From Peptostreptococcaceae bacterium pGA-8 (lineage in GTDB: Bacteria; Bacillota; Clostridia; Peptostreptococcales; Anaerovoracaceae): a stretch of DNA of 64,000 bases. Each line of letters starts with the position of its first letter. The first letter of the stretch is position 1. The stretch lies in the NCBI GenBank assembly GCA_900112915.1, contig FONK01000008.1, forward strand, positions 1 through 64,000. The letters run 5' to 3'. Shown here one piece after another: positions 1,633 to 9,166 of this stretch. Below the pieces are notes generated by a model. The model did not search any database and was not told the origin of the DNA. It saw nothing but the letters and a program-made list of their open reading frames with translations. The position numbers were made by a program, and so were the translations under genes.

Positions 1633-2534
1633 AGTCGGATATGTTAATTGAGGAATTTTTAAAATATTTTGCAGAACAAAAATCAACATCAAAAAACACT
1701 ATAGAAGCCTATAAGAGAGATATTAATGCATTTGAAAAGTTTCTTGATTCAAGGGGTATTGGAAGTTTAACAGATGTTAACAGCGCCCATGTTGCATCGT
1801 ATCTAATGGATATGACAAAAGAAGGAAAATCCAGTGCTACAATTAATCGAAAGCTTTCGTCTGTAAGGTCATTCTATAAATACCTTGTAAGAAAGGGACT
1901 TATTCCTGTAAATCCGGCCGAAGATATTAAGGCTCCAAAGCTTCAAAGAAAAGATATAGAGGTTTTATCCATAGATGAAGTAGACAAGCTTCTATCCATG
2001 CCTGATGACAGCATTATGGGCAAAAGGGACAAGGCGATTTTGGAGGTTATGTACGCAACAGGAATCAGAGTTACTGAAGTCATTGAACTTAAGCTTAAGG
2101 ATTTAAATATGAGGATGGGGTTTGTGACCTTAGATGGACGATATGGAAAGGCTAGAATTGTGCCTATGGGAACAATTGCAAGGAAGGCTATGGATAGGTT
2201 CCTTCTGGAAGCGAGAGATTTCCTACTGAAGAATGCTGATCCGGGCGACCCGGATTCTGTTTTGTTTCCAACCTCCAGGGGCGGGAAGTTTTCGAGGCAA
2301 AGTATTTGTAAGCTGGTTACTAAATATGGAAAAAAAGCCGGTCTCGGAGATGATTTAACTCCACACATATTAAGGAACTCTATTGCTGTTCACATGCTGG
2401 ATGATGATATGGACATCGGAGTACTTCAAGAATTGCTTGGCCACGAGGATTTTAAAGCCATGAAGGCATATCAAAGTGCCACGAAAAAGAACAGAATAAA
2501 GGACGAGTATGACCAACATCATCCACGAGCATAA
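1629..2534 (+). CDS. xerD: Tyrosine recombinase XerD
   Basis: 301-residue site-specific recombinase, expected to resolve chromosome dimers at dif. An N-terminal SAM-like core-binding domain (about 1-95) precedes the catalytic domain. All six catalytic residues are visible: R147 (ATGIR), K174 (YGKAR), H246 and R249 (PHILR), H272 (LGH) and Y281 nine residues later. The residue after R249 is N where many family members have H, which is not catalytic. It starts with ATGA overlapping nudF. XerC is not in the window, and a XerC identity cannot be fully excluded from motifs alone. Confidence 0.85.
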   Translation: MKSDMLIEEFLKYFAEQKSTSKNTIEAYKRDINAFEKFLDSRGIGSLTDVNSAHVASYLMDMTKEGKSSATINRKLSSVRSFYKYLVRKGLIPVNPAEDIKAPKLQRKDIEVLSIDEVDKLLSMPDDSIMGKRDKAILEVMYATGIRVTEVIELKLKDLNMRMGFVTLDGRYGKARIVPMGTIARKAMDRFLLEARDFLLKNADPGDPDSVLFPTSRGGKFSRQSICKLVTKYGKKAGLGDDLTPHILRNSIAVHMLDDDMDIGVLQELLGHEDFKAMKAYQSATKKNRIKDEYDQHHPRA

Positions 2535-2541
2535 TTTATGC

Positions 2542-2570
2542 TTGACATTGCGATGTAATATGGATATACT
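2542..2570 (+). promoter_or_regulatory. Promoter of the ileS leader
   Basis: TTGACA (2542-2547) and TATACT (2565-2570) with a 17-base spacer lie just upstream of the T-box stem I. Expected start is near 2577. Confidence 0.75.
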
Positions 2571-2593
2571 TACAGAATAATTGAAAATATTTT

Positions 2594-2810
2594 AGACTAT
2601 GACGGAACCAGTAGCCTGGTGTAATACCCTTACAGAGAGCAGATTCAATGGTGAGAGATCTGCGGTGAAACCAACGTGAATATCACTCCTGAGTCTGACA
2701 CTTTAATGAGAGGCGCCTTGATGGAGGTAGCAACTAGGGTGGTACCGCGGTTATTTGAATAATCGTCCCTAATCGACAATTGTAACTAATTGTAGGTTAG
2801 GGATTTTTTT
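2594..2810 (+). promoter_or_regulatory. T-box riboswitch, isoleucine specifier, upstream of ileS
   Basis: Stem I is closed by AGACT (2594-2598) pairing with AGTCT (2692-2696). The specifier loop carries ATC, an Ile codon, at 2682-2684 (GTGAATATCAC). The conserved T-box AGGGTGGTACCGCG is at 2736-2749. The terminator stem TCCCTAA (about 2766-2772) pairs with TTAGGGA (2797-2803) and is followed by seven T up to 2810. Uncharged tRNA-Ile should stabilise the antiterminator and switch on ileS (and probably rlmN). No tRNA-Ile(GAT) is in this window. Confidence 0.95.
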
Positions 2811-2825
2811 ATGAAGGAGAGAGAA

Positions 2826-5800
2826 ATGTTTGAAAAATTATCAGAAAAACCTGTAGCTGATGTGCAGAATGAACAAGTACAGCTTTGGAAAAATGAAGAT
2901 ATTCTGCACAAATGTGTAACTGCAAGAGAAGGAAAGCCTAAATATGTCTTTTATGAGGGGCCGCCGACTGCCAATGGAAAGCCGGGTATTCACCATGTTA
3001 TGGCAAGGACACTTAAGGATTCGGTATGTAGGTATAAGACAATGAAAGGCTTCCAGGTTAACAGAAAGGCCGGATGGGATACACACGGACTTCCTGTTGA
3101 AATTGAAGTTGAAAAGCAGCTTAATATGAGCGGTAAGCAAGATATTGAAAAATACGGAATCAAAGAATTCAATCAAAAATGTAAGGAATCAGTTTTCACA
3201 TACACAGGAATGTGGAGAGAAATGACTGAAAGAATGGGGTATATGGTAGATCTTGATAACCCGTATATCACTCTCGACAATGATTATATTGAAAGCGGAT
3301 GGTGGATTTTAAAAGAATTCTTTGATGCGGGTCTAATTTATGAAGGTCACAAAATCCTGCCATATTGTCCAAGATGCGGAACCGGTCTTGCGTCCCACGA
3401 AGTTGCACAAGGCTATAAAGAAATAAAAACAAACACAATTACTGCAAAGTTTAAGAGAAAAGACACTGAAAATGAGTATTTCCTAGCATGGACCACTACA
3501 CCGTGGACTCTTGCGTCTAATACTGTTTTGACAGTCGGACCCGATTTCACTTATGTGCGAGCACGCATGAATGAAGGTGATGAAGAGGGGAATGTTTTCT
3601 ATGTAGCAAAGGAGCTTGCCGATAAGGTTTTAGGAGCAGGAAAGTATGAAGTTCTGGAGGAGATGAAAGGTAGCCAGCTGGAGTACATAGAGTATGAGCA
3701 GCTGATGCCTTTTGTTAAAGCTGATAAGAAAGCGTTTTTTGTAACCATAATGGACTATGTAACCATTGAAGACGGTACAGGAATAGTACATAGTGCTCCG
3801 GCCTTCGGTGAGGACGACTATCAGTGCGGAAGAAAATATGACTTACCTATGCTACAACCTGTAGATGAGCAGGGATGCTATACGGAAACACCGTGGAAGG
3901 GCCGTTTTGTAATGGAGGATGGTCTTGATATCGATATAATCAAATGGCTTGCTGCAGAAAACAAAATATTTGCAAAGGCCAAGATAGAGCACAACTATCC
4001 ACATTGCTGGAGATGTGGAACCCCATTAGTGTATTATGCAAAGCCAAGCTGGTATATTGAAATGAGCAAGCTTAAGGATCAGCTGGTGGCAAATAACAAT
4101 ACTGTAAACTGGTATCCTTCTTATGTTGGCGAAAAAAGATTTGGGAACTGGCTGTCTGATGTAAAAGACTGGGCTATTTCAAGATCAAGATACTGGGGAA
4201 CACCAATTCCGGTATGGAGATGTGAATGTGGTCATATGGAATGTATCGGAAGCAGAGAAGAGCTTGTTAATAAAGCTGTGGAGAACATAGATGAGTCAAT
4301 AGAACTTCATAGACCATATGTAGACGATGTTCATATTAAATGCGAGCATTGCGGAAAAGAAATGACAAGAATTCCGGAAGTAATGGACTGTTGGTTTGAC
4401 TCCGGAGCTATGCCTTTCGCACAGTGGCATTATCCTTTTGAGAACAAAGAAATCTTTGAGGAAAAATTATTCCCGGCTGACTTTATTTGTGAAGGAATAG
4501 ATCAAACAAGAGGTTGGTTCTATTCTCTGATGGCAATTTCTACATTTATAAAGGGCACGGCACCATATAAAAATGTTTTAGTTAACGACCTGATTTTGGA
4601 TAAAGACGGCAAGAAAATGTCAAAATCAAAGGGTAATACGGTTTCACCTTTTGAATTATTTGATAAATATGGAGCAGATGCGACAAGATGGTACTTGCTC
4701 AGCGTTTCACCTGCTTGGACTCCGACTAAATTTGACGAGGAAGGACTTAAGGATGTTGTATCAAAGTTCTTCGGTACCATAAGAAACGTCTACAATTTCT
4801 TTGTACTATACGCCAATAATGATGAATTGGATCCAAAAGACTGCTTTGTAGATTATGCCGAAAGACCTGAACTGGACAGATGGATACTTTCAAAATACAA
4901 TAAGCTCGTGAAAGAGACAACTGAATTCATGGATGAATATGATCATATGAAAAGTGTGCGGGCTATGACAGAATTTGTATCTGAAGATTTATCAAATTGG
5001 TATATAAGAAGAGCAAGAAGAAGATTTTATGCTGAAGACTTAACGGCGGATAAGAAGAGTGTCTATGCAACTACATACGAAGTTCTGGTTGGTGTGGCAA
5101 AGCTGATTGCACCGTTTGCACCTTTTATCTCAGATGAAATCTTTACAAAGCTTACAGGTGAAGAAACTGTTCATGTCGCATATTTTCCGGAAGCTGACCT
5201 ATCATTAATTGATGAAAAGGTTGAGGAGAGAATGGATTTGGTTAGAAGCCTGGTTACCTTGGGAAGAGGAACCAGAGAAAAAGAGAGAATAAAGGTTAGA
5301 CAGCCTTTATCAGAAATCCTTGTAGACGGAAAATATGAGGAAACAATTTCAGATTTAACTCCACTTATCTTGGAAGAACTCAATGTCAAGGAAGTAGTTT
5401 TTGAAAAAGAGCTTGGCAAGTTTATGAACTTTAAGCTGAAGCCTAACTTTAAGGTTGCGGGTCCTGTATTAGGCAGCAAAATAAAGGCATTCGGAGCAGC
5501 TCTTGCTAAGGAGAATGCAGCTGAGGTTGCGGCTCAGCTGGAACAGAACAATACCTTTACATTAAATCTCGAGGGTGAAGATTTCCAAATTGAAAAGGAT
5601 TTTGTAGATGTTCAAATTCAGGCAAAGGATGGATTTGCTGTTGCTATGGAAAATAATGTATTTACCATTTTGGATACTACAATTACTCCGGAGCTGGAAA
5701 ATGAAGGCTTAGCAAGAGAATTGATTTCAAAAGTTCAGCAGCTGAGAAAGCAGCATGACTTCATGATGATGGATAACATTAAGATAAAAATTGAAGCAGA

Positions 5801-8258: not shown

Positions 8259-9008
8259 TTAGTTATGACACTTGTGCTGGCTGTGACCACATCTATGCTC
8301 GCCATGCTCGTGACTGCCACAGCTGTGATTTCCTGAACCATGATGATTACATTCAACATTTGCATTGTATTCTAAGGTTCCATTGATGTAAGCGTTTACA
8401 GCGTCATCTGTAGAGCCATGAACACCACCGAGTAATTGGATTTCGGCTTCTGCAAGAGCTATTTTTGCACCCCCTCCGATGCCGCCGCAAATAAGAATAT
8501 CTACATCAGCCTTCTTTAGAAAACCGGCAAGAGCACCATGACCGCTTCCGGCTGCATCTAATACAACAGATTCTGTTACTGTTTTGTTTTCTACTGTGTA
8601 AACTTTAAATTCTTTACAATGTCCAAAATGCTGATATACTTGTCCATTTTCGTAGGTTACTGCTATTTTCATCTTTTTATTCTCCTCTAATTTTGCTAAA
8701 TTTCGTTGATCCTTTGAAAGCGTGAAATTGCCACCACCAATAAGTAGGGGTTTTTCATTTAACAGAGCATCTGCCAGCTTAAAGCGAGCAGCTTCATACA
8801 TAGCTGCAACGGTAGACCTGGATACATTCATAGATTCGGCACATTGCTCCTGAGTAAGCTTTTGATAATCTATGAGTCTAATTGTTTCAAATTCATCAAC
8901 GGTTAAAAATATCTCCTTATTGTTGTTTTCAGCACAATAGAAAGCAGGAATTAACCCGTCACTATTTGGCATAGAGTCAACTGTACGACTTTTTTGTGGC
9001 CTAGGCAC
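8259..9008 (-). CDS. DUF134 helix-turn-helix / NifX-NifB-like cofactor-binding fusion with His-rich tail
   Basis: 249 residues in three parts. Residues 1 to about 100 are a DUF134 domain with a sigma-70-region-4-like helix-turn-helix (KLTQEQCAESMNVSRSTVAAMYEAARFK is the helical region). Residues about 112-218 match dinitrogenase iron-molybdenum cofactor-binding proteins (NifX/NifB C-terminal): MKIAVTYENGQVYQHFGHCKEF, then GGIGGGA. The last 30 residues are a His/Cys-rich tail suited to metal binding. I start at GTG 9008, six bases after AGGAGG (9015-9020) and matching the family start PRPxK; the open frame runs on to an ATG at 9035 inside the operator. Likely a metal- or cluster-responsive regulator that may control itself; no nitrogenase genes are near. 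Confidence 0.85.
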   Translation of the reverse strand: MPRPQKSRTVDSMPNSDGLIPAFYCAENNNKEIFLTVDEFETIRLIDYQKLTQEQCAESMNVSRSTVAAMYEAARFKLADALLNEKPLLIGGGNFTLSKDQRNLAKLEENKKMKIAVTYENGQVYQHFGHCKEFKVYTVENKTVTESVVLDAAGSGHGALAGFLKKADVDILICGGIGGGAKIALAEAEIQLLGGVHGSTDDAVNAYINGTLEYNANVECNHHGSGNHSCGSHEHGEHRCGHSQHKCHN

Positions 9009-9024
9009 TTTCGTCCTCCTGATT

Positions 9025-9078
9025 GTTATTAACATATGTCAATAACAATTATAGAGCTATTATTAACATATGTCAATT
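9025..9078. repeat. Tandem near-palindromic boxes overlapping the DUF134 promoter (candidate operators)
   Basis: The same sequence TTATTAACATATGTCAAT occurs twice, with CATATG cores at 9033-9038 and 9067-9072, 34 bp apart. Each core is nearly palindromic (TTGACATATGTTAA). The downstream copy extends to a 22-bp palindrome (GTTATT...AATAAC, 9025-9046) with one mismatched pair. One box covers the -35 of the promoter, the other lies near the transcription start, a typical repressor layout. Confidence 0.6.
9048..9076 (-). promoter_or_regulatory. Consensus promoter of the DUF134-NifX gene
   Basis: On the minus strand a perfect TTGACA (9076-9071) and a perfect TATAAT (9053-9048) are separated by 17 bases. 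Such a strong promoter between two operator-like boxes suggests tight repression. Confidence 0.85.
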
Positions 9079-9100: not shown

Positions 9101-9127
9101 TTGACAGGACAGAATACTTATTATAAA
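9101..9127 (+). promoter_or_regulatory. Possible promoter of yraN-comM-dprA
   Basis: TTGACA (9101-9106) and TATAAA (9122-9127) with a short 15-base spacer. Divergent from the DUF134 promoter, 25 bp beyond its -35. Confidence 0.5.
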
Positions 9128-9166
9128 ATTGGAAAAAATTACCAATTGAAAGGGTGTGTATGAAAA

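Follow-up and report, generated by a model that had tools for sequence, protein, structure and literature searches.

The DUF134-NifX locus and its promoter

The window, that is the whole analysed stretch of 64,000 nucleotides, carries on its minus strand a gene in which a DUF134 domain is fused to a NifX-type domain. The gene, its promoter and two identical boxes are arranged as follows.

8259..9008, minus strand: DUF134-NifX fusion gene, 249 aa, GTG start (Pfam PF02001 and PF02579)
9015-9020, minus strand: ribosome-binding site AGGAGG, 6 bases upstream of the GTG
9029-9042, minus strand: box 2, TTGACATATGTTAA, starting 5 bp past the -10 element and covering the expected transcription start
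9048-9076, minus strand: promoter TTGACA-17-TATAAT, 12/12 match to the consensus
9053-9048, minus strand: -10 element TATAAT
9076-9071, minus strand: -35 element TTGACA
9063-9076, minus strand: box 1, TTGACATATGTTAA, which opens with the six bases of the -35 element

Read along the minus strand, box 1 is followed by TATAAT, box 2, AGGAGG, six bases and GTG CCT AGG. The first-pass annotation described two boxes 34 bp apart, one over the -35 element and one near the start of a perfect consensus promoter. This description holds: TTGACATATGTTAA is present without mismatch in both boxes, which lie on the minus strand with centres 34 bp apart, 9063-9076 contains the -35 element, 9029-9042 lies just past the -10 element, and TTGACA-17-TATAAT scores 12/12. 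The same annotation mentioned a 22-bp near-palindrome with one mismatched pair. The single mismatch was found as claimed, but the structure is longer, namely 28 bp (ATTGTTATTGACATATGTTAATAACAAT, 9022-9049) with box 2 as its core. The near-palindrome around box 1 is 16 bp long (9062-9077) and also has one mismatched pair. The gene's promoter thus has operator-like sites that overlap its core elements, as is expected of a one-component autorepressor.

GTG 9008 is the most likely translation start, in preference to ATG 9035 of the mechanical open reading frame, since AGGAGG (9020-9015) precedes the GTG by six bases and the alignment to relatives agrees with it. ATG 9035 falls within box 2. A divergent promoter-like site, TTGACA-17-TAAAAT (9101-9129, plus strand, 11/12 consensus), faces yraN (UPF0102), and its -35 element begins 25 bp from box 1.

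A genome-wide search for the 14-bp motif, proposed in the first-pass annotation, gave exactly two matches to TTGACATATGTTAA in the 1.78-Mb genome, both at the minus-strand promoter (9029-9076). The third-closest site, the single match with one mismatch, is located inside a coding ORF that looks like a phage tape-measure gene. Looser matching gave 22 strand-matches at ≤3 mismatches in the window vs 11.6 expected (about twice chance). At ≤2 mismatches the genome held 31 strand-matches vs 21 with a reversed control pattern, a palindromic site being counted on both strands. These numbers do not suggest that the own genome contains a large regulon.

The encoded protein

The protein consists of an N-terminal DUF134 helix-turn-helix, a C-terminal Nitro_FeMo-Co (NifX/ORP-like) domain and a His/Cys-rich tail, which is present in most of the 13 aligned relatives. 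According to the curated scores it belongs to DUF134/UPF0251 (PF02001, 69.7 bits, cut-off 27) and to Nitro_FeMo-Co (PF02579, 72.9 bits, cut-off 26.3); the query scored was one residue longer than the 249-aa form. The score for Sigma70_r4 (PF04545) was 21.3 bits, under the curated cut-off of 24.1, and the comparison of DUF134 with sigma-70 region 4 is therefore limited to "works like". Within its own genome the protein is the sole PF02001 match and, in a separate profile search, the single PF02579 match.

The AlphaFold2 model has a confident helix-turn-helix (block pLDDT 96-98, residues 41-80) and a confident NifX domain, with an overall pTM of 0.58. Foldseek neighbours of the C-terminal part include PH0822, TM1816, ORP, NafY and NifX. 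The DUF134 part alone matches numerous sigma region 4 domains as well as the DNA-binding domain of DeoR; no row has E <0.001, yet several have rmsd <1 Å. VIA-align lists mostly sigma region 4 for this part, with a best Z of 7.3, and values of Z <8 (here 6 to 7) could reflect a mere common arrangement. The helix-turn-helix is thus predicted to resemble both sigma region 4 and the DNA-binding domain of DeoR.

The DeoR (SorC family) domain 7bhy is the best solved-structure sequence match of the helix-turn-helix (E 4e-4) and the first Foldseek row for the DUF134 part (rmsd 0.6 over 40, E 0.065). DeoR has a deoxyribonucleoside effector domain and an operator different from the box. Sigma region 4 bound to -35 DNA is represented by sigma-E 2h27 (Foldseek, rmsd 0.9 over 48 columns, E 0.19) and Taq sigma-A 1ku7 (Z 5.8), and TTGACA is the half-site of the box. 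The differences are that the box is palindromic, that DUF134 has no known polymerase contacts and that the PF04545 score stays below the cut-off.

The window protein also matches the model of MrpORP (Desulfovibrio vulgaris) over its dinitrogenase-cofactor (Di-Nase) domain, below the cut-off. In MrpORP this domain is joined to an ATPase and not to a DNA-binding domain. Passages of one study describe MrpORP/orp systems, in which the Di-Nase domain occurs with Mrp-type P-loop ATPases; the MrpORP Di-Nase domain was isolated mainly as a dimer, with spectra that fit a [3Fe-4S] cluster (PMC6345978). The orp operons of D. vulgaris are described, in passages of another, as sigma-54-transcribed and IHF-dependent (PMC3897727). 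Among the titles listed from open-licence published papers, none pointed to a binding site or regulon for DUF134, UPF0251, COG1342 or the core motif.

Boxes in front of related genes

Two sets of loci were compared. The named set, which is biased to the fused type, was drawn from 555 relatives of the fused protein by taking the best 80. The family set comprises 31 DUF134 loci, namely the window and 30 others, one per genome, best first. A matrix, trained on the same sequences it scored, found a TTGACATAWGTCRGAAA-like box upstream of 77 of the 80 loci in the named set and 25 of the 30 family relatives (26/31 with the window), altogether 102/110, or 103/111 with the window, vs 7/2220 shuffles. 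According to the first-pass annotation, absence of the boxes from orthologous promoters would speak against the idea; the opposite was found. Its suggestion that an autoregulatory layout defines a candidate DUF134 site likewise gains support from the boxes before these 102 relatives.

The window's own, untrained 14-mer occurs within 200 bp upstream of 13, 41 and 77 of the 110 relatives at ≤1, 2 and 3 mismatches, vs 0, 5 and 68 of 2200 shuffles. For the core TGACATATGTCA, the named loci (best 80 of 555) gave 50/80 at ≤1 and 63/80 at ≤2 mismatches vs 0/1271 and 12/1271 control windows. When the core was permuted into 199 other palindromes, none matched more than 1/80 of the named loci (best 80 of 555) at ≤1 mismatch.

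The consensus reads aTTGACATAWGTCRgAAA, with G, the centre ACATAxG and C as the most conserved letters. The named loci (best 80 of 555) belong, by NCBI ranks, to Clostridia, Erysipelotrichia, Negativicutes, one Spirochaetota and one Actinomycetota, so that the box accompanies the DUF134 gene in three phyla (Bacillota, Spirochaetota, Actinomycetota). Two TGACAAATGTCAGAAA boxes are located ahead of the DUF134 gene of Treponema saccharophilum. Selenomonas ruminantium has a pair of boxes, 34 bp apart, ahead of DUF134 and a further one ahead of the adjoining Mrp gene; the box is also found with a DUF134 gene in Roseburia.

Within the family set the box was present for all 17 proteins of ≥200 aa and for 9 of the other 14, whose length does not suffice for both domains. 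The eight relatives missed by the matrix are short in five cases (L028, L031, L032, L037, L042) and full length in three (L123, L143, L172). In L028, L031, L037 and L042 the matrix finds no box for a short type of DUF134, which is 157-162 aa long and has a MARPTKWRKIEN-like start. Two further members of this type, L022 and L023, have sites that pass the matrix, 118-139 bp upstream.

About half of the loci (54/111) have two boxes. The -35 element is supplied by the box itself in 56 of the 103 box-bearing loci, the commonest spacer being 17. Box spacings of 28 (19 loci), 34 (10), 33 (7), 22 (5) and others were recorded; helical phasing of the two boxes as a general rule was rejected, as these spacings have no common phase. 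In an Eggerthellaceae locus (L173, ~488-531) a perfect palindrome of ~44 bp is centred on the DUF134-NifX box.

A search for extra boxes around the named loci (best 80 of 555) covered 4 kb or the distance to the contig end, allowed ≤1 mismatch to TTGACATATGTCA and required an A/T-rich flank; it found one. The fused DUF134-NifX form therefore looks mostly like a single-promoter autoregulator.

Association of the box with DUF134 among genomes

Among 148 family genomes, the exact 12-mer was present in 51 and its reversed control in 9. DUF134 was over the cut-off in 72 of these genomes, and 39 of the 51 with the 12-mer also had DUF134 (p = 9e-7). The own genome is counted among the 39 solely via a 12-mer inside coding sequence, because the window's boxes differ from the 12-mer by one base. 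Within 700 bp of a DUF134 match lay 29 of 71 box places, vs 0.03 expected. DUF134 was below the cut-off in 12 of the 51 box-bearing genomes. Two of these have boxes near a contig end (L210, L212), and in two others the boxes stand ahead of genes resembling DUF5320 or NifX (L215, L216); no link was seen in the remaining eight.

In the class-level sample of 391 genomes, TTGACATAWGTCRRAAA was present in 23 and its reversed control in 2. DUF134 (E ≤0.001) was present in 19 of these 23 vs 167 of all 391 (p = 1e-4), with 150/391 over the cut-off. The site lay within 1 kb of a DUF134 match in 14 of the 23. Of the four without DUF134, one has its box 45 bp away from the start of a contig (L197), and the other three are genomes of one family in which the box has unrelated neighbours (L205-L207).

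The regulon search in the own genome found none: its only exact 12-mer (G000, contig 5) lies within coding sequence, and its only PF02579 match is the DUF134-NifX protein itself. The class-level pattern TTGACATAWGTCRRAAA has no match in the own genome, as the window's boxes do not conform to it. DUF134 and the exact 12-mer are both absent from two genomes of the same genus (G083, G136), which is a weak comparison, as the window's boxes also deviate from the 12-mer. The genes yraN, comM and dprA are present in G083, and no DUF134 gene was found beside yraN in the stretch examined. In G136 comM was not found.

Which protein could bind the boxes

Since the same box recurs before relatives in other bacteria, it is very probably the binding site of the DUF134-NifX protein itself, as judged from sequence. 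At position 69, in the recognition helix, the window protein has Ala, and 23 of 103 loci have Glu. The best box has C..G as outer bases in 21 of the 23 loci with Glu69 vs 1 of the 80 without Glu. The tree supports about one independent change; this is too few for the covariation to be claimed as proof of contact.

The chief rival is a regulator of the Crp/Fnr family that binds the boxes, with DUF134 merely one of its targets. Sites of this family follow TTGA-N6-TCAA or a PrfA-like geometry, and the centre of Crp sites is variable. The rival owes its rank to the near ubiquity of such regulators and to the E. coli CRP consensus, which contains TGACATATGTCA as given in a passage of PMC4655474. 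The core palindrome alone is thus not diagnostic. PF13545 (E ≤0.001) was found in 145/148 family genomes (124 over the cut-off), with 7 matches in the own genome. Two loci have such a site at a Crp/Fnr gene. In L080 (G071; 2279-3025, minus strand; PF00027, PF13545) the exact TGACATATGTCA stands at 3001, the 5' end of the gene, with different flanks (ATGACATATGTCAT). In L223 the -35 element of the gene comes from a box with one mismatch.

Nevertheless, this rival is given a probability well below that of DUF134-NifX itself and is regarded as improbable. The core at ≤1 mismatch was found, in ~3.2 kb, at 1 of 30 Crp/Fnr loci (L223) vs 19 of 31 DUF134 loci, so that the site was not associated with Crp/Fnr genes; the single case is itself an intergenic region shared with DUF134. 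The divergent DUF134 gene there is on the other strand, its match ending ~90 bp from the box, and the box fits either regulator because the region is common to both genes. Furthermore, the centre ACATAxG is conserved in the boxes, unlike that of Crp sites, the box goes with DUF134 in three phyla, and the own genome has no exact box besides the two at the DUF134-NifX promoter.

Several sites in this context were recorded as such. At ~900-1050 of L223 (G032), where the Crp/Fnr and DUF134 genes diverge, DUF134 might control both; upstream sequences in L156 and L159 are very similar. The same palindrome at 3001 of L097 (G130) is followed by a gene that is Crp/Fnr-like by appearance. Exact TGACATATGTCA sites at ~1501 of L055, L056, L067 and L068 lie near NiaR-type regulators and/or vitamin transporters (by eye), and could represent another use of the palindrome or chance. 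NiaR as the binder was rejected on half-site order, since the boxes read ACA-N2-TGT and not TGT...ACA; the type I NiaR consensus is TGT-N4-ACA in a passage of PMC7713382.

Proposed mechanism

The two boxes could serve as the operator of their own gene, to which DUF134-NifX would bind and thereby repress itself; the probability of this reading is put at roughly 80%. A dimer would bind each box via the helix-turn-helix. Occupation of the -35 element (box 1) and of the start region (box 2) would then block RNA polymerase, so that the gene would repress its own expression. The NifX/ORP-like domain and the His/Cys tail probably bind a metal or an Fe-S cluster, which would set the affinity for DNA.

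Sigma region 4 reads TTGACA in promoters. The operator can be read as two inverted copies of this half-site. Given also the predicted likeness of the DUF134 helix-turn-helix to sigma region 4, the operator may amount to a -35 element in duplicate, and the repressor probably competes with sigma region 4 for the same bases.

Activation by DUF134, or action in both directions depending on the cluster state, appears slightly less probable even than binding by a Crp/Fnr regulator. Relatives with one box only, or with boxes further upstream, could accommodate it. The window's 12/12 promoter argues against it, as its boxes lie over the -35 element and just past the -10 element, the usual layout of repression.

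That the palindrome acts as RNA, the leader hairpin of box 2 shielding the ribosome-binding site or stabilising the mRNA, is the least probable reading, very unlikely in spite of folding z ≤-2 in 4 of 5 stretches (window -3.0 at -14.8 kcal/mol, L118 -2.1, L126 -4.3, L165 -3.2) and of palindrome arms that reach 28 bp in the window: any palindrome folds likewise, the stems in L126 and L165 take in a box that, as the source of the -35 element, is located ahead of the transcribed region, the two-box stretch of L108 has z -0.5, the long arms are not conserved among relatives, and no Rfam family reached its gathering score, only sub-threshold microRNA models appearing.

Genes behind further boxes and a possible wider role

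Elsewhere boxes precede DUF5320-DUF134-NifX-MinD/Mrp operons, and the genes behind further boxes encode DUF5320, NifX and 4Fe-4S MinD-type or Mrp ATPases. Seven box-preceded proteins were confirmed by Pfam (L078, L085, L086, L190, L194 and two of L204), and further contexts were assigned by eye. Boxes in L186, L187 and L188 stand before genes of no evident link.

Self-repression by DUF134-NifX builds on the observed boxes and promoter, on their conservation with the gene and on the genes behind further boxes in relatives. A broader proposal, held tentatively and considered doubtful, is that DUF134-NifX proteins are widespread cluster-sensing repressors, whose sigma-region-4-like domain would read an inverted -35 element and which would control the NifX, MinD, Mrp and DUF5320 metal-cluster genes of anaerobes according to the supply of Fe-S or metal clusters. 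If so, promoter element and operator would be the same bases. The NifX/ORP-type domain, which in other settings is known for carrying a cofactor, is here predicted to be the sensor of a transcription factor. DUF134, a domain of unknown function, would gain a candidate DNA site and candidate target genes.

Small Gly/Arg-rich DUF5320 genes lead boxed DUF134 operons in L085 and L204 (by Pfam; PF17253 was scored for these two only) and in L185 and L189 (by eye). In L186 and L187 (G385 and G345, one genus, both with DUF134), an exact TTGACATATGTCAGAAA at 1501 lies at the junction of two large genes, which are of the radical-SAM/B12 type by appearance.
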